The translations under genes and the position numbers were made by a program. 64,000 nt of DNA from Gammaproteobacteria bacterium (lineage in GTDB: Bacteria; Pseudomonadota; Gammaproteobacteria; Steroidobacterales; GCA-2729495): the NCBI GenBank assembly GCA_030426355.1, contig JAUHYQ010000005.1, positions 1-64,000 of the forward strand. The letters run 5' to 3'. Shown piece by piece: positions 11,468-19,904 of the stretch. The notes beneath the pieces are model-generated. The model worked only from the letters and a program-made list of their open reading frames with translations, was not told the origin of the DNA and ran no database searches. Position 1 is the stretch's first letter, and each line of letters begins with the position of its first letter.

Positions 11468-12490
11468 ATGAATATTTTCTTAAAATTCAGTGTGCTAGTT
11501 GTGGTGGTGCTGTTATCAGGCTGTGAGCCGTCCGGCGTGAAAGAGCGGCCAGTGACCATTGCCGGTACCAGTTTTCCGGGCACCATAGGCGAAGGCCATT
11601 GGTTAGAGTTTCACCGCAAATTAGAGGCAGCCACCGGCGGGCGCATGCCTTTGCGGTTACTTATACACGGACAGCTGGGCTCAGAAGATCAGTTGGTGTC
11701 CGGGTTGCGTCGCGGGCGAGTTCAATTTGCCAATCTTTCGGCGATGGCGGTGAGTACAGTGGTGCCCGAGATGGCGTTGCTTTATGCACCGTTTTTGTTT
11801 GATAACGAAGCTGAATCGGATTACGTCTACGATCGTTACCTTACTCCGCTTTACAGCGAGTTGCTGGCTGCAAAAGGCCTGCATCTGGTTAGCTGGTACG
11901 AAATCGGGTTTATTCAAATTTACGGTAAGGAGCCCTTGCTGGTGCCCGAGCAGATGCAAGGTCTGCGGTTTCGCGTGGGCGCGGGTCCGGCAGCGCGATT
12001 ATTTGCGAAGGCCATCGGTGCCGATGTCATTCCACTGGGCTTTGCGGATGTGGTTGCATCCTTGCAGACGGGGCTGGTGGTCTCGGGCGAGCAGGCGGTT
12101 AGTCTGTACGCCCGGACCGGCATTGCGGGAGAGGCGCCGCACCTGGCCATGACCGACCACTCTTTTGGAGTATCGGCCATCGTGGCCAGCAAGTCATGGT
12201 GGGACGGCCTTAGCGAAGCCGAAAAGGCTGCCGTTATGGAGGCCTGGCCGCCAGCCCCCCGAACCCGGGCCGACGTGCGTGCCGAGTCCGCTGCCGACCT
12301 GAAAGCGGGGGCCGAATTGGGTATCCGGGTGCATCGTATCAGTGCGGAACAGCGTGATCTGTGGCGTAAGGCCACGGCACCGGTAACTGATAAACTGATA
12401 AAAACCATCGGCGGTCGTTCCGCCGATATATATGCCGTCATCCAAGCGGCACGAGAGGAATTTCGTGAGTCAGCCAGCACACTACGTTAA
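11468..12490 (+). CDS. TRAP-type (DctP) substrate-binding lipoprotein, orphan
   Basis: 340 residues. The N-terminus ends in a lipobox ([12 protein letters not shown]), so it is a lipoprotein rather than a free periplasmic protein. The DctP fold is clear: [39 protein letters not shown], and the ligand-binding Arg region [20 protein letters not shown]. Such proteins bind carboxylates or similar anions for DctQM permeases. No DctQ or DctM gene lies nearby, so it may serve a distant permease or act as a sensor. A TATACT box sits 16 bp before the ATG. It overlaps the likely msrA start by 26 bp, so the two are probably co-transcribed. Confidence 0.85.
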
Positions 12491-13028
12491 CGGTCATTCG
12501 ATAGTTGAACCTTTCCCCGACGGCATGCAAAAAGCCATGTTTGGAATGGGTTGTTTTTGGGGGGCGGAACGGAAGTTCTGGACGTTGCCGAATGTTTACG
12601 TGACAGCAGTTGGTTATTCGGCAGGCAACACGCCTAACCCGAGCTACCAGCAGGTTTGCAGTGGCTCTACCGGCCACAGTGAGGTGGTGCTGGTGGTGTT
12701 CGACCCGAACAAGCTGAGTTATGAATCATTGCTGCAGGTGTTCTGGGAGTCACACGATCCGACACAGGGCATGCGGCAAGGTAACGATATGGGCACCCAG
12801 TACCGCTCCGGCATCTATACCTACGATGAAACGCAACAGCAGCAGGCATTGCAATCACGCGAACGTTATCAGAGTGCTCTGAGTGCCGCCGGGTTCGGTG
12901 CCATAACCACAGAAATTATTCCTGCAACCGCGTTTTACTATGCGGAGGATTACCATCAGCAATACCTGGCCAAAAACCCGGGCGGTTATTGCGGTCTTGG
13001 CGGCACCTCTGTAGCTATGCCCGCCTGA
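12465..13028 (+). CDS. msrA: Peptide methionine-(S)-S-oxide reductase
   Basis: 187 residues from the GTG at 12465, chosen because GAGAGGA lies 6-7 bp upstream; the track's start at 12432 lies further inside the dctP-like gene and has no ribosome site. The catalytic Cys is in GCFWG (Cys30), and the family motifs [28 protein letters not shown] and [14 protein letters not shown] are present. MsrA reduces the S-epimer of methionine sulfoxide in the cytoplasm with thioredoxin. It lies near msrPQ, which act in the periplasm. Confidence 0.93.
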
Positions 13029-13049: not shown

Positions 13050-13065
13050 TGTGACGCAGTTCACA
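13050..13065. promoter_or_regulatory. CRP/Vfr-type site upstream of the first HD-GYP gene
   Basis: TGTGACGCAGTTCACA matches the cAMP-receptor consensus TGTGA-N6-TCACA perfectly in both arms. It is centred about 107 bp upstream of the GTG of the HD-GYP gene at 13165. A second perfect site stands at nearly the same distance from the other HD-GYP gene (18533-18548). Confidence 0.7.
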
Positions 13066-13098
13066 CTGCACTGCTATCCTCGCTTCAAACTGTGACAT

Positions 13099-13164
13099 CT
13101 GCACCGCAAAATAATGCGGCAGCTACATAACATGGCCCTTCTGATGGGATAGCAAGGGCCTTTT
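13099..13164 (+). promoter_or_regulatory. Two-hairpin leader before the HD-GYP gene
   Basis: Hairpin 1: CTG-ca-CCGCA, loop AAATAA, TGCGG-CAG (13099-13122). Hairpin 2: GGCCCTT (13134-13140) pairs with AAGGGCC (13154-13160), followed by TTTT and then directly by the GTG start at 13165. Hairpin 2 looks like a terminator. Its 3' arm also contains AAGGG, the only ribosome site for the HD-GYP gene, so folding would both attenuate transcription and hide the start. It does not match the GEMM c-di-GMP riboswitch as I know it. Confidence 0.5.
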
Positions 13165-14496
13165 GTGTCAGGCAAGCGGATAAAAATTGACGCGGCCGAT
13201 TTAGTGCCGGGGATGTATGTCGCCCAGCTTGATCGGCCGTGGCTGGAAACGCCGTTTCTTTTTCAGGGCTTCGAGATCAGCGAGGAGTCAGAAATAGATC
13301 AGCTGCGGCACTACTGCCAGCACGTCTATGTCGATCTTAAGCGCAGCAGCATGTCCGCCGACGAGATTCAGGGCCGGCAGCGCAAGGCGGACGACCCGGT
13401 CCTGGTTGCGTTTGAACAGCGCAAACCGGGCCCCGCAGCAAAGCCCCCCGGTCTGGTTCGTCGTATCGCCAGCAAGTTCGCCCGAATTGATCCGACCGGA
13501 ACGATATCCAGGCGGTTAAGCGGGTTGCAGGACTATCGCAACAAAAGTAGCACCCGCAAAGAAGCCCCCAAAGCCGTTAGCACATATAACAACGCTGTAG
13601 CGATCATGAACGATGTATTGACGACGGTTCGTGATGGCCGCTCCGTCGATGTCGAAACGGTGCGCTCGGCCGTTACACCGATGATCGACAGCGTGTTGCG
13701 AAACCCTGACGCAATGTCATGGTTTGTGACGCTGCAAAAACAAGACGATTACAGTTACCACCACTCTATTGCAACTTCTGTGTGGGCCGTGGTGCTTGGT
13801 CGTCATCTGGGTTTTGATCGGCGCAGCCTCGACAAGCTTGCGATCGGTGGAATGTTGCTGGACATCGGCAAAACTCGTTTGCCGCAGGAAATCCTGCAGA
13901 AACCCGATCGCCTGAGTCCTCACGAAGCTGACCTTATATGCCAGCATGTTGATTTTAGTCTGGACATGGTTAAGTCATCGCACGGGATCAGCCGCGATAT
14001 TCTAGACATGATTCAGAGTCACCATGAGCGTCATGATGGCTCCGGTTATCCACAAGGCTTGTCCGGTGCCGACATCCCGGTATATGGACGCATTGCCGGT
14101 ATTGTCGACTGCTATGACGCCATGGTGACAACCCGACCCTATCAGAGCGCCCGCTCGTCATATGATGCTGTGCGCGAACTCAACAAGCATTCCGGCACGC
14201 TGTTTCAGAAAGAACTGGTCGAGCAGTTTGTGCAGGCGCTTGGTATGTTCCCCACCGGTAGTCTGGTTGAGCTGAATACCGGTGAGGTGGGAATTGTTGT
14301 CGAACAAAACCGTGTGCGGCGCTTGCGCCCCAAAGTCATGTTGCTGCTAGATCAGAGCAAGCAGCCAATAAAAAAGAACCGCACGCTGGATCTACGCAAG
14401 CTGCCGAGTGATTCCAAGAAACCCAATGCTGTCTGGATTGCGCACGGTCATGAAGCCGGAGCCTTCGGCATAGACCCGCAAGACTATTTCATGTGA
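13165..14496 (+). CDS. DUF3391 + HD-GYP domain protein, one metal ligand missing
   Basis: 443 residues. An N-terminal DUF3391 domain (KIDAADLVPGMYVAQLDRPW, HVYVDL) is followed by an HD-GYP domain (about 190-370). HD-GYP proteins are cyclic-di-GMP phosphodiesterases with a di- or tri-iron site. Seen here: His199/200 (YHHS), HH at 286-287 in SHHERHDGSGYP, and Asp in VDCYDAM. The diagnostic His-Asp is Leu232-Asp233 (MLLDIGK), so the histidine ligand is gone. It may have altered activity or act only as a c-di-GMP receptor. The GTG start fits the DUF3391 boundary. It lies 7 bp upstream of an EAL gene, so the two are an operon, with a CRP-type site and hairpin leader upstream. Confidence 0.88.
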   Translation: MSGKRIKIDAADLVPGMYVAQLDRPWLETPFLFQGFEISEESEIDQLRHYCQHVYVDLKRSSMSADEIQGRQRKADDPVLVAFEQRKPGPAAKPPGLVRRIASKFARIDPTGTISRRLSGLQDYRNKSSTRKEAPKAVSTYNNAVAIMNDVLTTVRDGRSVDVETVRSAVTPMIDSVLRNPDAMSWFVTLQKQDDYSYHHSIATSVWAVVLGRHLGFDRRSLDKLAIGGMLLDIGKTRLPQEILQKPDRLSPHEADLICQHVDFSLDMVKSSHGISRDILDMIQSHHERHDGSGYPQGLSGADIPVYGRIAGIVDCYDAMVTTRPYQSARSSYDAVRELNKHSGTLFQKELVEQFVQALGMFPTGSLVELNTGEVGIVVEQNRVRRLRPKVMLLLDQSKQPIKKNRTLDLRKLPSDSKKPNAVWIAHGHEAGAFGIDPQDYFM

Positions 14497-14503
14497 ACTG
14501 CTG

Positions 14504-15799
14504 ATGAAGACTAATCCGAATACGGCGAATCGCTACAGTGATCTTCTGGGGATTATTGACGACATGCGGGTCAGCGCAGCGAATGCAACGATCGCATTGG
14601 TGCTGGGAAAAATAGACGGTGTGGGCGGTTTGAATGCGCGATTTGGTTATGCAACCGGTGATAAAGTCATAGAAAGTTTTCATGAAAAAATTCGGGGTAT
14701 CGCCAGGCAAAGTGATATTGCACTGGAGACCAGCAGCAGTTCCTTCGCGTTTATCATTCATTCGCCGCTCCACGAGGGGCATGTCATGTTGGCGGCGGAG
14801 AAAATTGCCCGTATCGCCGAGGAATGGATTCAGATTAATGATACCCGTATGCGTCTGGATGTGAGCATGGGTTGCGCTTTAATTGATAATGCCCGGGACA
14901 GTTCTGATTTACTGTTGCAGCAAGCTGAGAAAGCACTCAGAAAATGTCGTTCGATAGACCAGCGCATGATTTTTTACGATGCGCAAGATGATGATACGTT
15001 AGGCACGTCCTCTCATCCCATGTTTGATGCGCACAAAGCCATCGAGAATGGCGAGTTTCGGGTGCACTATCAGCCGCAGTTCAATCTGAAAACCCGGCAG
15101 TTGGTTGGTGCCGAGGCGCTGGTTCGCTGGAGCGGGCCGGACGGTCTGGTTTCGCCGGGCAGCTTTATGAACGAACTGGAACGCGCCAGGGCACTGATGC
15201 CGCTGCTGCAATTCGTCATGAACAGTTCTTCACGCGAAATGGCCCGTTGGGTGCGGCGTAAACCGACCATGCAAGTTGCCATCAACTCAAGCGCAACGGA
15301 CCTTGAGGACGCCGATCTGGTAGAAATCATGCGCGAGGTTCTGGGTATGTGGAACCTGGATCCCGCGCAGTTGAAGCTGGAAATTACCGAAACCAGCCTC
15401 ATGCGCGATCCCGCACTAGGTATAGATACGCTATGTCGATTGCGCGAACTAGGCGTCAAAACCTCGATCGATGATTTCGGAACCGGTTATTCCAGTCTGT
15501 CGTGGCTAAAGAATCTGCCAGTAGATGAACTCAAGATCGATCGCTCTTTTGTACGCAACATTATTGATGACAAGCGAGACCGAAAGATTGTCGAGTCCAT
15601 TATTGATCTCGCCCACGCCATGAATCTGACAGTGGTGGCAGAAGGAATCGAGTCCGAGGGTGTGCTGCAGTTGCTTGCAGCGGCGGGTTGCGATGTGGGT
15701 CAGGGATTTTTCTTCAGTCAGCCGTTAACCGGTGCCGAGTTTGAGCGTTGTTGGCTAAACGATCGCCAAATTGCCTCTCTGGAGCCGGCCGCAACGTAA
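14504..15799 (+). CDS. Cyclic-di-GMP phosphodiesterase, degenerate GGDEF + EAL
   Basis: 431 residues without membrane segments. The GGDEF half (about 25-165) has lost its active site: the motif position reads SSSSF (77-81). It may serve only as a regulatory domain. The EAL half (175-425) keeps its catalytic set: EAL at 204-206 (GAEALVRW), Asn in VAINSSATDL, ITET, IDDFGTGYSS, the Lys in VDELKIDRSFV, VAEGIES and GQGFFFSQP. It should hydrolyse c-di-GMP to pGpG. It lies 7 bp after the HD-GYP gene and 7 bp before a small coiled-coil membrane protein gene. Confidence 0.92.
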   Translation: MKTNPNTANRYSDLLGIIDDMRVSAANATIALVLGKIDGVGGLNARFGYATGDKVIESFHEKIRGIARQSDIALETSSSSFAFIIHSPLHEGHVMLAAEKIARIAEEWIQINDTRMRLDVSMGCALIDNARDSSDLLLQQAEKALRKCRSIDQRMIFYDAQDDDTLGTSSHPMFDAHKAIENGEFRVHYQPQFNLKTRQLVGAEALVRWSGPDGLVSPGSFMNELERARALMPLLQFVMNSSSREMARWVRRKPTMQVAINSSATDLEDADLVEIMREVLGMWNLDPAQLKLEITETSLMRDPALGIDTLCRLRELGVKTSIDDFGTGYSSLSWLKNLPVDELKIDRSFVRNIIDDKRDRKIVESIIDLAHAMNLTVVAEGIESEGVLQLLAAAGCDVGQGFFFSQPLTGAEFERCWLNDRQIASLEPAAT

Positions 15800-15806
15800 T
15801 CGTCCA

Positions 15807-16205
15807 ATGACTACCGTTATCTCAACCGTGCTGGTTTCCTCTCCTGTCGCTTTTATGGCAGGTTGGTTGCTGTCAAAGGCCGTCGCCAATCACCTTGCTC
15901 GCGGCGTGCGGCCAAAATCGAGGGCGACCAAGCCAGTCGAGCCCATCGGCGTGGACGATCGTGATGCGCAGATTGCAGAGCTGCAAAGGCAACTCGACCT
16001 CGCGGAGGCACGCGTCGCGAAATCAAAACGGAGTTTCAAAGTCTGGCGCGAACGCATACGCCCGATAGCGCAGCAATTTCGTCAGCAACGCATGATAATC
16101 AGCGAACTTCGCGATGAACTCCGCCGGCGAGACTCGCTAGTGCGTCAGGCAGAACCAAAACAGCCTGCCACAACCAGCGCGGCACGTGAACCAACCAAGG
16201 TTTAG
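15807..16205 (+). CDS. Small membrane-anchored coiled-coil protein
   Basis: 132 residues from the ATG at 15807, 7 bp after the EAL stop (the track start at 15771 lies inside the EAL gene). One N-terminal membrane helix (VISTVLVSSPVAFMAGWLLS) is followed by a basic linker and a coiled coil (DRDAQIAELQRQLDLAEARVAKSKRSF) and an Arg-rich helix (RPIAQQFRQQRMIISELRDELRRRD). No family is recognised. Its place as the last gene of a c-di-GMP operon suggests a membrane tether or partner for the HD-GYP or EAL protein. Its stop overlaps that of the convergent DUF1838 gene by 4 bp. Confidence 0.7.
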   Translation: MTTVISTVLVSSPVAFMAGWLLSKAVANHLARGVRPKSRATKPVEPIGVDDRDAQIAELQRQLDLAEARVAKSKRSFKVWRERIRPIAQQFRQQRMIISELRDELRRRDSLVRQAEPKQPATTSAAREPTKV

Positions 16206-17164
16206 TCGCGCTGGAAGACGCTGCCGACCGGCTTCTGGTTATCGCCCCACCGCTGGTCAATTTCCTGCTTTGAGACTGTTAACTGGCTGGCGTTGTCACG
16301 CAAGGACTGCCATTGGCTTGGTGATTTAAGGTACTTGGGGTGATGTTTCTCGGTATAAGCGAGAATATTTGTCGGTATTTGTTTCACCCCGTCCAGCAGT
16401 TTGTATGAGTCGCTGTGATAAACCATGATCCCCGGCCGATTCCCCATTTCCATAAAGGGTAGCCACTGGCCGACTCGGGACCAGGAAGTTACGCAACTTG
16501 CTGACGTGATGTCCGGATTCATGACCTCGCTGACGCGACCGTTCATCATCCAAAGTTCTGCAGCCTGATATTTGTTATCCGCGGAATGCAGCGGGTAGTC
16601 GGCGCGCGGCATTATTGAATCCCGAAAGCTGAAAACGCTGATCCGGAACACGAGATCGTCGCCAACCACTGTATACGGCCACGGGAATGGGAAGCGTCCG
16701 CCGTCAAAGGCATAAAAACGGTGCACGGGATCATTCAGAATATGCATGACTTCGACCCGCTTGCCGGTGTACGGGTTTATCCAGTCATCGAGAATTTCCC
16801 CGGTGTCGGGATCAAGGTAATAGAGTAATTCGCGGTGATAAAAACGCCAGCCGTCTTCTACCTGTTCTGCGTGGCTGGCGCCAATACCGTAACTTCTGAA
16901 CAACAGTTTGTTGCCTTCGCCGGGCACCCAGCCCCACACCTCGCCGGGAAACCCGCCGATAACATCAGCGCCGGAAGTGTCGGCCTGCAATTTGATCAGC
17001 GCGGTGAGGTTGTCACGAGGGTTATCGAGGTCAAGCCAGGTTGCTGCCGCTGCCGAGCCAGCCCCCATAGCTGTCGCTGCTATGCCGGCTGCTCCGGCCA
17101 GAGCATCGCGGCGGGTAATGCGTTTTTCATATCCGGCCGGTATCGGGAACGTTGTCTTTTTCAT
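16202..17164 (-). CDS. DUF1838 Tat-exported protein (copy 1)
   Basis: 320 residues. A twin-arginine signal (KRITRRDALAGAAGIAATAMG) marks export of a folded protein. The mature part is DUF1838-like: LDLDNPRDNLTALIKLQADT at the start, then YLDPDTGEILDDWINPYTGKRVEVMH and NPDITSASCVTSWSRVGQWLPFMEMG. DUF1838 function is unknown; the proteins often occur near oxidoreductases. A second copy at 28611-29516 shares the same order of motifs (YFTDLQTGAILDTFKNPYNGK; NNPEITSAS) and overlaps a molybdenum hydroxylase subunit gene. This copy stands alone between two c-di-GMP gene units. Confidence 0.82.
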   Translation of the reverse strand: MKKTTFPIPAGYEKRITRRDALAGAAGIAATAMGAGSAAAATWLDLDNPRDNLTALIKLQADTSGADVIGGFPGEVWGWVPGEGNKLLFRSYGIGASHAEQVEDGWRFYHRELLYYLDPDTGEILDDWINPYTGKRVEVMHILNDPVHRFYAFDGGRFPFPWPYTVVGDDLVFRISVFSFRDSIMPRADYPLHSADNKYQAAELWMMNGRVSEVMNPDITSASCVTSWSRVGQWLPFMEMGNRPGIMVYHSDSYKLLDGVKQIPTNILAYTEKHHPKYLKSPSQWQSLRDNASQLTVSKQEIDQRWGDNQKPVGSVFQRD

Positions 17165-17242
17165 GCGCCGTATTATGCCTCACTTCGGCATACGCGCAGC
17201 TGCCATCCGGGACAGGCAGAGCGGTGTATTCACGGCGTGGTC

Positions 17243-18436
17243 TCAGGCGATGGTTTCGAGGTCCGGTGCGGTAAAGCCCGGGCTGGCCCGGTGGCGCGCA
17301 CGAATAATGGGATTCAGTCGGCTTGCATGGGCCGTGTGCGCATCCATCGGCATGCCGTTCGCTTTGCTGACTATGGCTATGCGCGGTGACAGGGGCCAGT
17401 GATGGTTTTGCGCGCAGACTACACCGATTGAGCCGTCCAGTAGTTCCACCCAGGTGCCGGTGGGATAGATGCCCATGGCACGAATAAACTCCTGCAATAG
17501 GGCGTCGTCGAATTTGATGCGACGCTGGCCATTAAGATAGCGCAATGCGGTGTGAGCAGAAATGGCCGGCGCATAGCGCCGATCCTGAGTAATGGCGTCA
17601 AAGGTATCGACAATTCCAGCAATACGGGCGAACAATGGAATCTCGGTGCCGCGTCGATTGTGCGGATAGCCACTGCCATCGAAGCGTTCATGGTGATTGC
17701 TCACCATGCTGACTACCCGATTCGGCACCTTATCCATGATGCGCACCAGCTCAACAGCGTGGCACACGTGCTTGCGTACCAAACCGGTTTCTTCGGCTGA
17801 GAGGTTGTCGGATTTGGCCAGGATGGGCACCGGCACTTCGATCTTGCCGATATCCATCAGCAATCCGCCCAGTGCGAGTTCCATAAGCGCGGTGCGATCG
17901 AAGCCCAGCTTGTCACCGTAGATAATGCAGGTGATGGCCGTGCCAATCGACCGCCGGTAGATATAACCGTCGCTATTATCGGTGCGGAGCAACCAGAGCA
18001 GTGCGTCCGGGCAGCGTTTTGCGCTTTCCACGGTCGGGACCAGACCGGCATTGAGCGTTGCAATATAAGGCAGCCGTCCACGCCGGACTTCCTTAACCAT
18101 GTCGCGAACCGTTTGGCGCAACAGATTAAGTGCCTGACGTGCCCACGGCAGTTCTTCTTCAATATCAAGACGTTCCACACGCGGTGCGAGCAGCGTCATG
18201 GGCAGTGGCTCAAACGGCAGCGCAATTTCGAGCGTTTCCTCGCTGCGGTGTGGATCGACATACACATAGGTGCAGTAGCGTCCTATGCGTTCAATCTGAT
18301 GTTGATCGCGTATATAGAAACCTCCCGGCGGGAAAGGAGTATGCAGCCAGAGACGATCCAGCGATGACACATACATGCCGGGCCGCAGGCGGTCGGCTTT
18401 TAATGCAACGAGATGGTCGTCGAGAGCACTGCCCAT
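17243..18436 (-). CDS. DUF3391 + HD-GYP domain protein, two metal ligands missing
   Basis: 397 residues and a diverged paralogue of the protein at 13165: DUF3391 (ALKADRLRPGMYVSSLDRLWLHTPF, CTYVYVDP) then HD-GYP. HHERFDGSGYP and VDTFDAI are intact. The first histidine motif reads YRRSIGT in place of a His-containing HHS-type sequence, and the His-Asp reads MDIGK, so two iron ligands are lost. Enzyme activity is doubtful; binding of c-di-GMP or protein partners through the GYP face is more likely. A purine-rich AAGAAGAAAA precedes the ATG. A perfect CRP-type site lies about 105 bp upstream of the start, as for its paralogue. Confidence 0.86.
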   Translation of the reverse strand: MGSALDDHLVALKADRLRPGMYVSSLDRLWLHTPFPPGGFYIRDQHQIERIGRYCTYVYVDPHRSEETLEIALPFEPLPMTLLAPRVERLDIEEELPWARQALNLLRQTVRDMVKEVRRGRLPYIATLNAGLVPTVESAKRCPDALLWLLRTDNSDGYIYRRSIGTAITCIIYGDKLGFDRTALMELALGGLLMDIGKIEVPVPILAKSDNLSAEETGLVRKHVCHAVELVRIMDKVPNRVVSMVSNHHERFDGSGYPHNRRGTEIPLFARIAGIVDTFDAITQDRRYAPAISAHTALRYLNGQRRIKFDDALLQEFIRAMGIYPTGTWVELLDGSIGVVCAQNHHWPLSPRIAIVSKANGMPMDAHTAHASRLNPIIRARHRASPGFTAPDLETIA

Positions 18437-18472
18437 GCGATTTTCTTCTTCTTATAATTTATAGGGCGTAAC

Positions 18473-18492
18473 GCTGCATTAGCAGATGCAGC
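18473..18492. repeat. Inverted repeat in the HD-GYP upstream region
   Basis: GCTGCAT-TAGCAG-ATGCAGC, a perfect 7-bp inverted repeat with no T tract. It lies between the CRP-type site and the start of the leftward HD-GYP gene. It could be an operator or a leader hairpin. Confidence 0.4.
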
Positions 18493-18532
18493 AATACAGG
18501 CAGAAACTTTATCAGGGCGCCGGCGGATAAAC

Positions 18533-18548
18533 TGTGACTCTCGTCACA
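18533..18548. promoter_or_regulatory. CRP/Vfr-type site upstream of the second HD-GYP gene
   Basis: TGTGACTCTCGTCACA matches TGTGA-N6-TCACA in every consensus position and is flanked by AAAC and CGCG. It is centred about 105 bp upstream of the HD-GYP start at 18436. It lies in the gap after the cytochrome gene, which ends at 18584. Confidence 0.72.
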
Positions 18549-18583
18549 CGCGTTTGCGGTGCGGCAGCCTTAAGTCAAATGCT

Positions 18584-19471
18584 CTAGTCCACGCTCTTGA
18601 GATACAGCGCGATAGCAGCACGGTCTTCGGCACTCAGTCGCGACGTGTTGTCTTCAATAACCGCCGCCATGCTGCCGCCCGTGAAATCCCCGTCCGGGGT
18701 CATGCCCAATTCCAGAAAAAACTCTATGTCGCTGAGATCCCACGCGGCTAAGCCGGATGAGCTGTTATTTATTGCTGGGGCGCCGTTGTCGCCGCCGCTT
18801 TTGGGGCTGCCGGCGAGCTCGACGCTCAGGTCAAGGCCGCCGGCCGGGCCTCGTCGTGTATGGCACTCTCCGCAGTGACCCAGATGCCGAACCAGATAGG
18901 CGCCGCGTTCTGTGCCAGGTTTCGGCGGATCATAGCGCCATGGTGAGTTCAGTTGCTTCCATATTCCGAGCATGCCGCGACCCGGGACGAACCAGTGAAG
19001 TTGATGCGGTCTGTTGAGTCGGCGCACCGGGGTCAGGCTGTCCAGATAGTCTTTGATAGCGAGTACATCGGCATCGGTCATGCCTGCGTATGAAGGGTAG
19101 GGGAATGATGGATAGTAGTGGCTGCCGTCAGGTGCAACACCGGCGCGCACTGCGGCAGAGAATTCCGCTTCGCTCCAGCCGCCGATGCCGGTTTCCATAT
19201 CGGGGGTGATGTTCGGCGTATAGAACACTCCGTAAGGTGTTTCTAATGTGTGCCCGCCGGCAAACGGTGCGCCGTTATTTTCTTTATCGGTATGGCAGCT
19301 CACGCAACCACTGGCTGCGGCCAGGTAGGATCCTCTTGCGACCCTGTCGGCACTTACCGATAAGGGTTTGCCGTTGGTTTCGCTGGCAATCCCGGGGACG
19401 ACAGCTGCCAGCAGCAGAAACAGTATCCGTAGTCTAACTGTGTAGTTTGCCGGATGCGGCAATCTAGTCAT
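18584..19471 (-). CDS. Dihaem cytochrome c, gluconate/alcohol dehydrogenase-type subunit
   Basis: 295 residues from the ATG at 19471 (GGCGGA upstream); the track start at 19510 lies inside the preceding gene. A signal sequence (LRILFLLLAAVVPGIAS) is followed by two CxxCH haem sites, CVSCH and CGECH, in domains of the type seen in the cytochrome subunits of membrane alcohol and gluconate dehydrogenases (GVFYTPNITPDMETGIGGWSEAEF; YLVRHLGHCGECHTRRGP). Those have three haems; the third domain is absent here. It overlaps the upstream cytochrome gene by 8 bp, so both are made together as periplasmic electron carriers. The partner dehydrogenase is not adjacent. Confidence 0.87.
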   Translation of the reverse strand: MTRLPHPANYTVRLRILFLLLAAVVPGIASETNGKPLSVSADRVARGSYLAAASGCVSCHTDKENNGAPFAGGHTLETPYGVFYTPNITPDMETGIGGWSEAEFSAAVRAGVAPDGSHYYPSFPYPSYAGMTDADVLAIKDYLDSLTPVRRLNRPHQLHWFVPGRGMLGIWKQLNSPWRYDPPKPGTERGAYLVRHLGHCGECHTRRGPAGGLDLSVELAGSPKSGGDNGAPAINNSSSGLAAWDLSDIEFFLELGMTPDGDFTGGSMAAVIEDNTSRLSAEDRAAIALYLKSVD

Positions 19472-19904
19472 CTTCCGCCTTGTAACGCTCGTGGCAGCCT
19501 TTGCACGCATCCGCGACCGCCTTAAAACCTTTTGCTATGTCTGCCTTGTTGCCGGTGGCCGCAATTTCGGCAAACGCAGCAGTGGCCTCAACGGCCGATT
19601 TTGCTGCCGCTGCGACCTTCTCGGGTTCGTCCCAGATCAACGGCAGCGCATCGGCGCCCTTGGAGCTCTCGGGAAACAAACCGCCAATCAGTGTTGCTGA
19701 TTCTGCCAAAGCGCGGGCGTTAACCTGCATTTCGTTCCCCCGGTCAACCTTGTTTTGCAGGATAAGCCCCATGGCGGCAACCTGATTGCTCATTGCTTCC
19801 ATGACCGCATGGCGATAACGGATTTCAGGGTTTTTCTGATTATCGTGCGCTACCGCCAGCAGCGGCAGTGACAGCGCAGCAAGAACAGTCAGTCGTTTAA
19901 TCAT
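19464..19904 (-). CDS. Class II (c'-type) cytochrome
   Basis: 146 residues. A signal peptide ends near AVAHD and a helical domain follows, with a single CxxCH near the C-terminus (ADACKGCHERYK), the mark of cytochrome c' and related four-helix-bundle class II cytochromes. RYRHAVMEAMSNQVAAMG matches the first helix of the family, with a Met available as distal residue. It likely carries electrons or binds NO/CO in the periplasm. The gene is first in a two-gene unit with the dihaem cytochrome, whose ATG lies inside its last codons. Confidence 0.88.
   Translation of the reverse strand: MIKRLTVLAALSLPLLAVAHDNQKNPEIRYRHAVMEAMSNQVAAMGLILQNKVDRGNEMQVNARALAESATLIGGLFPESSKGADALPLIWDEPEKVAAAAKSAVEATAAFAEIAATGNKADIAKGFKAVADACKGCHERYKAEDD

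Follow-up and report, generated by a model that had tools for sequence, protein, structure and literature searches.

Conserved CRP-type sites at class II spacing point to cAMP-linked control of two DUF3391/HD-GYP genes and an EAL gene in a gammaproteobacterial family

Circuits in which CRP controls c-di-GMP enzymes are already known, and the promoter positions from which CRP acts are well described. At the E. coli deo promoter CRP sits near -40 and near -90, a tandem or class III arrangement. The published class II and class I positions of CRP are -41.5 and -82.5 (PMC11894529, PMC5957442). The route by which CRP lowers c-di-GMP signalling in Vibrio cholerae and Pseudomonas putida is the transcription of metabolic enzymes or effectors (PMC11139211), and in Myxococcus xanthus the CRP-like protein MrpC activates the HD-GYP gene pmxA via two sites centred at -191 and -232 (PMC8844925). 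The HD-GYP proteins themselves vary in activity. PA4108 of P. aeruginosa, whose N-terminal domain was described as uncharacterized, is active and very slow (PMC3774798), and V. cholerae VC2497, a DUF3391-HD-GYP protein, is reported to depart at one residue essential in PmGH and to have had no phosphodiesterase activity in any assay (PMC4212101). What is new in the locus described here is a probable family-wide instance of such a circuit, one whose promoter anatomy is unusually clear and whose conservation is unusually deep.

We analysed a window of 64,000 nucleotides (the whole of the stretch considered, from contig JAUHYQ010000005.1 of a gammaproteobacterium in the Steroidobacterales), in which an earlier note had pointed to two palindromes upstream of paralogous DUF3391/HD-GYP genes on opposite strands. 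Pfam agrees with this domain assignment for both genes, HD1 on the plus strand and HD2 on the minus strand, and they are the only DUF3391 genes in the genome. The two loci comprise the following features:

12432-13028, plus strand: msrA-type gene upstream of HD1, a conserved neighbour; the gap between it and HD1 holds the HD1 promoter
13050-13065, no strand assigned: TGTGACGCAGTTCACA, the distal of the two CRP-type sites at the HD1 promoter, its centre at about -82.5 relative to the predicted start, a class I position
13091-13106, plus strand: TGTGACATCTGCACCG, the proximal CRP-type site at the HD1 promoter, with a degenerate downstream half and its centre at -41.5, a class II position
13128-13133, plus strand: predicted HD1 -10 element TAACAT, 29 bp from the centre of the proximal site, in the column of the orthologues' near-invariant TATTAT
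13165-14496, plus strand: HD1, DUF3391 plus HD-GYP (Pfam), 443 aa; the HD dyad reads LD (LDIGK), HHE..GYP is intact
14504-15799, plus strand: GGDEF-EAL protein, apparently in one operon with HD1; its GGDEF motif is degenerate (SSSSF) and its EAL domain retains the catalytic residues
17243-18436, minus strand: HD2, DUF3391 plus HD-GYP (Pfam), 397 aa; MDIGK, first metal His and HD-dyad His missing, HHE..GYP intact
18506-18511, minus strand: predicted HD2 -10 element TAAAGT, 29 bp from the site centre, corresponding to TA(A/C/G)AGT of the orthologues
18533-18548, no strand assigned: TGTGACGAGAGTCACA when read on the minus strand, the CRP-type site at the HD2 promoter, its centre at -41.5, a class II position
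18584-19510, minus strand: cytochrome c gene upstream of HD2, a conserved neighbour; the gap between it and HD2 holds the HD2 promoter

Both palindromes, TGTGACGCAGTTCACA at 13050-13065 and TGTGACTCTCGTCACA at 18533-18548, match TGTGA-N6-TCACA exactly, as the earlier note had claimed. The window contains no further exact match (0.07 expected by chance), and none of 100 shuffles of the window contained two, which bears out the view that the pair is unlikely to have arisen by chance. A count over the whole 2.82-Mb genome (99.7% complete) gave eight exact sites and one match to the reversed-pattern control; with one mismatch allowed there were 50 sites versus 33 control matches. A clear excess over background is limited to the exact sites, and one-mismatch sites are mostly uninformative. 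The one-mismatch motif, which barely exceeds its control, was dropped as a definition of the genome-wide regulon.

The palindromes are centred 107.5 bp (HD1) and 104.5 bp (HD2) upstream of the start codons, and this near-symmetry had been taken as significant. We now regard it as coincidental and reject it as meaningful, since the start-codon distance of the site ranges from about 55 to 128 bp among relatives and since, measured from the predicted -10 elements, the perfect site of HD1 falls at -82.5 and that of HD2 at -41.5. The corresponding transcription starts are predicted at about 13140 on the plus strand and about 18499 on the minus strand.

To place these sites in a wider context, we compared the sequences upstream of HD1 (29 orthologues) and HD2 (27 orthologues) within the same bacterial family, counting a site as conserved if it had no more than two mismatches and lay 30-140 bp upstream, with 200 dinucleotide shuffles as control. 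Such a site is present in 21 of 29 HD1 orthologues (shuffle mean 0.83, maximum 4) and in 16 of 27 HD2 orthologues (shuffle mean 0.76, maximum 5), although the genomes are related and non-independent, so that the contrast with the shuffles overstates certainty. The conserved sites cover seven genera for HD1 and six for HD2; the possibility raised earlier that they would be absent upstream of orthologues can be set aside. Most of the remaining promoters (8/29 HD1, 11/27 HD2) keep GTGA or GTCAC in place. All 28 aligned HD1 promoters share the GTGA of the upstream half, and CCAC(A/G) is the usual form of the downstream half; in HD2 promoters it is the GTCAC of the downstream half that is nearly invariant, with an upstream half of (C/T)GTG.

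The stretch between site and -10 element is conserved in length and not in sequence. We chose the best site of each orthologue without -10 information and scanned for TAnnnT at 8-59 bp from its centre. The hexamer lies at 28-29 bp for 18 of 21 HD1 sites and at 28-30 bp for all 16 HD2 sites, and almost none occurs at other distances from 8 to 59 bp (background about 0.0056 per position). With 29 bp between the site centre and the -10 hexamer, CRP is placed at -41.5, as at class II promoters. Within the genome that the window comes from, TAnnnT occurs at exactly 29 bp for five of the eight exact sites, upstream of HD2, a PAS hybrid sensor kinase (L003/L175), an exopolysaccharide-type sugar transferase (L072), a small ORF (L001) and a putative small RNA (L071); because the gap was first noticed in the HD1 and HD2 orthologues, this genome-wide figure is a largely independent check. 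The promoter design is a family feature, kept across most of the family. Extending it to the whole order was rejected: in other families only 5/18 orthologues have a site within 140 bp and 2/18 have the spacing, a sporadic occurrence.

We consider it likely that the palindromes are operators of a CRP/Vfr-type global regulator at two CRP-dependent promoters, co-activating the HD1-EAL and HD2 units. Chance palindromes would be the simplest alternative, and a few matches are indeed expected in a genome of this size, as the single reversed-control match illustrates; the conservation, the fixed -10 spacing, the rarity in the window and the five exact sites with TAnnnT at 29 bp contradict this reading, to which we attach negligible weight. 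The palindromes also lie about 20-50 bp past the stop codons of the msrA and cytochrome c genes, both conserved neighbours, and could on that account be read as 3'-end terminators of those genes. We rejected this as hardly credible: no T-run follows either palindrome, the terminator scan lists none there, and what is conserved is the half-sites and their distance to the -10 of the downstream gene, not stem pairing.

The anatomy of the HD1 promoter gives its perfect palindrome a secondary place. The proximal site TGTGACATCTGCACCG aligns with the invariant GTGA-N6-CCAC block of the HD1 orthologues and has the 29-bp gap to TAACAT; in the window it is itself weak, a four-mismatch site of which only the upstream half fits TGTGA-N6-TCACA. 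The perfect site, 41 bp further upstream, is best understood as an accessory distal site beside this degenerate, deeply conserved proximal one. A second site is found 39-60 bp above the first in several HD1 relatives, other genera included, and in the nearest HD1-bearing relative (G001/L086) CGTGAACTGCGTCACA stands 56 bp above the proximal site. Within the window's genus the downstream half of the proximal site is degraded and two of three members with HD1 have a near-consensus distal site, which may compensate for it. The region 13134-13164, directly before the HD1 start codon, also contains GGCCCTT-N13-AAGGGCC followed by TTTT. This element could terminate read-through from msrA and leave HD1 transcripts unaffected, because the predicted HD1 start sits within its left arm.

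At HD2 the architecture is simpler, with the perfect site itself separated by 29 bp from TAAAGT. A TTGACATAA/GCATAAT-like element is conserved in HD2 orthologue promoters (L120-L143), at about -75 and some 20 bp above the CRP site; in the window it lies at about 18567-18578 on the minus strand, right after the stop codon of the cytochrome c gene; it could be an alpha-CTD target or a second promoter. The latter option bears on whether CRP might bind and repress, for instance if it kept RNA polymerase from using another promoter. CRP is capable of repression, but a -10 element at fixed spacing from a site at -41.5 is activation geometry, and we think repression quite unlikely. An Rfam search of the HD1 and HD2 leaders for a riboswitch gave nothing relevant.

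These promoters resemble E. coli class II and tandem promoters in the TGTGA-N6-TCACA core, in the -41.5 centre and, at HD1, in a second site at the class I position of -82.5 (PMC11894529, PMC5957442). They differ in that the start sites are predicted and the targets are c-di-GMP signalling genes, and, unlike at deo-type promoters, no second regulator such as CytR was identified at HD1 or HD2. The resemblance to MrpC and pmxA is that of a CRP-family factor, an HD-GYP gene and tandem sites 41 bp apart, as at HD1; MrpC, however, is a developmental regulator with its own consensus, whereas the present case involves a CRP/Vfr orthologue and two DUF3391 paralogues.

A regulator suited to these sites is encoded in the genome, so that the objection of a missing CRP-like protein does not apply. 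Among five confident CRP/FNR-family genes, one (L006), adjoining an rpe-like gene, encodes a 224-aa product with a cNMP-binding domain and a CRP helix-turn-helix (Pfam PF00027, PF00325, PF13545). The product matches Vfr and E. coli CRP with phmmer E values of about 1e-76, and its closest relatives in the PDB are Vfr and CRP; judged from its domains and matches, it is a CRP/Vfr-type protein. Orthologues are present in 39 of 40 family genomes at 82-99% identity, and are thus much more conserved than HD1 (42-67% identity in the family). Genomes G010, G011 and G012 (genus g3) keep the CRP orthologue and gave no HD1 or HD2 match at the thresholds used; the CRP matches of these three and of G039 have one stop codon within the matched stretch.

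The recognition helix of the protein reads SREMAGR and so retains R-E-x-x-x-R, which in E. coli CRP reads GTGA. Two FNR-like paralogues that we examined have instead a helix of the form xETVSR, an FNR-type sequence expected to read TTGAT-type half-sites. With five family members in the genome, another of them (the product of L005, L007, L009 or L011) might use the sites; given the helices of these two, and given that among the proteins read only the CRP/Vfr orthologue has the GTGA-reading R-E-x-x-x-R, we regard this as very unlikely.

The nature of the ligand was assessed from the binding pocket, with E. coli CRP numbering and an alignment with Vfr. G71, E72, R82 and T127 are kept, S83 is S or T, and S128 is N throughout. 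The genome has one class III adenylyl cyclase, with an FHA domain; a class I adenylyl cyclase was looked for in the genome and none was found. By homology, cAMP would be the ligand of the CRP/Vfr orthologue. A different outcome follows if the protein is Clp-like, CRP-shaped but c-di-GMP-sensing, in which case the sites would form a feedback loop with c-di-GMP controlling its own turnover genes. Xanthomonas Clp is described as a CRP-family factor inhibited by c-di-GMP (PMC4212101), and the protein does match the Clp structure 3iwz (E 9e-58) and has N at pocket residue 128. The match to Vfr and CRP is nevertheless far better (about 1e-76 versus 9e-58), of the six positions that contact cAMP five are retained or show conservative changes, and the genome has a cyclase, making a Clp-like regulator unlikely.

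We turn to the proteins that such a CRP would control. HD1 and HD2 share with VC2497 the DUF3391 and HD-GYP domain pair. Both have the HHE...GYP signature and neither has the HD dyad of an active HD-GYP phosphodiesterase; hydrolysis by either is doubtful because the HD-dyad His is lost. The same His is missing from the HD1 and HD2 orthologue motifs listed and from many DUF3391 proteins outside the family. DUF3391 HD-GYP proteins here and in several other gammaproteobacterial groups (loci L022-L041) read LLLDIGK, and HHE..GYP is kept in the family. The GGDEF-EAL gene follows HD1 closely here and is found after it in most orthologous loci. Its EAL domain is a strong match (PF00563, E 1.7e-68), and comparison with known EAL motifs (EALVRW, NSS, ITE, DDFGTG, KIDRSF, AEGIE and QGFFF in the translation) indicates that the catalytic residues are intact, so that the EAL protein after HD1 is, by its motifs, the intact phosphodiesterase of the locus. 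The link to c-di-GMP turnover is therefore drawn most safely through the EAL gene of the HD1 operon, as both HD1 and HD2 lack the HD-dyad His. In the connection between cAMP and c-di-GMP proposed in the earlier note, the cAMP ligand is assigned from homology.

Together these data allow us to propose a model of joint control by a CRP/Vfr-like protein, as first suggested in that note and now supported by the presence of the regulator, the conserved sites and the fixed -10 spacing. At HD2, a single CRP dimer at -41.5 would overlap the -35 region and contact RNA polymerase, as in class II activation. The HD1-EAL operon would have a consensus dimer at -82.5 in addition to a weaker, conserved one at -41.5, a tandem layout of class II plus class I ('class III'). 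As cAMP from the single class III adenylyl cyclase rises, CRP would switch on both units together; the surest consequence would be more EAL phosphodiesterase and hence less c-di-GMP. HD1 and HD2 would be atypical or weak hydrolases, or else partners that bind c-di-GMP. What can be predicted most safely is an increase, under CRP, in the EAL phosphodiesterase and in two HD-GYP proteins of atypical make-up. In V. cholerae and P. putida it is mostly repression of synthesis genes or effectors (cdgA, vpsT, vpsR, gcsA) that operates, whereas here CRP would activate genes for breakdown or sensing.

Two CRP sites elsewhere in the genome were noted. A perfect site with TAAATT at 29 bp lies between tRNA-methyltransferase-like and gpsA-like genes (L176, G000:C7:162627-162760), where the roughly 45 nt that come next, closed by a hairpin and T8, make up a candidate small RNA activated by CRP. 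Its loop sequence in the hairpin, CAGGGACG, fits the CsrA/RsmA consensus, CANGGANG, and genomes G003 (L180) and G001 (L183) retain the CRP site, the -10 and a GCCAGGGACGGC core. The candidate had no match in Rfam, and its fold was not better than that of shuffles (z -1.0). The second (L077, G000:C3:147419) differs from the motif by one mismatch, has TATCAT at 29 bp and precedes an argR-like and then an argG-like gene.

A conserved distance between site and -10 element across genomes can lift a weak motif observation to a strong regulatory prediction. In this family, cAMP very probably controls c-di-GMP genes via CRP. More tentatively, and with a good deal of doubt, the class II wiring of CRP to both DUF3391 paralogues may be family-wide and the paralogues may be c-di-GMP-sensing adaptors rather than enzymes, cAMP then setting both the capacity for c-di-GMP sensing and its breakdown. 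The analysis ties the little-studied DUF3391/HD-GYP group to a global regulator, and proposes, in a concrete form open to testing, how an uncultured lineage wires together the two bacterial second messengers that are known best.
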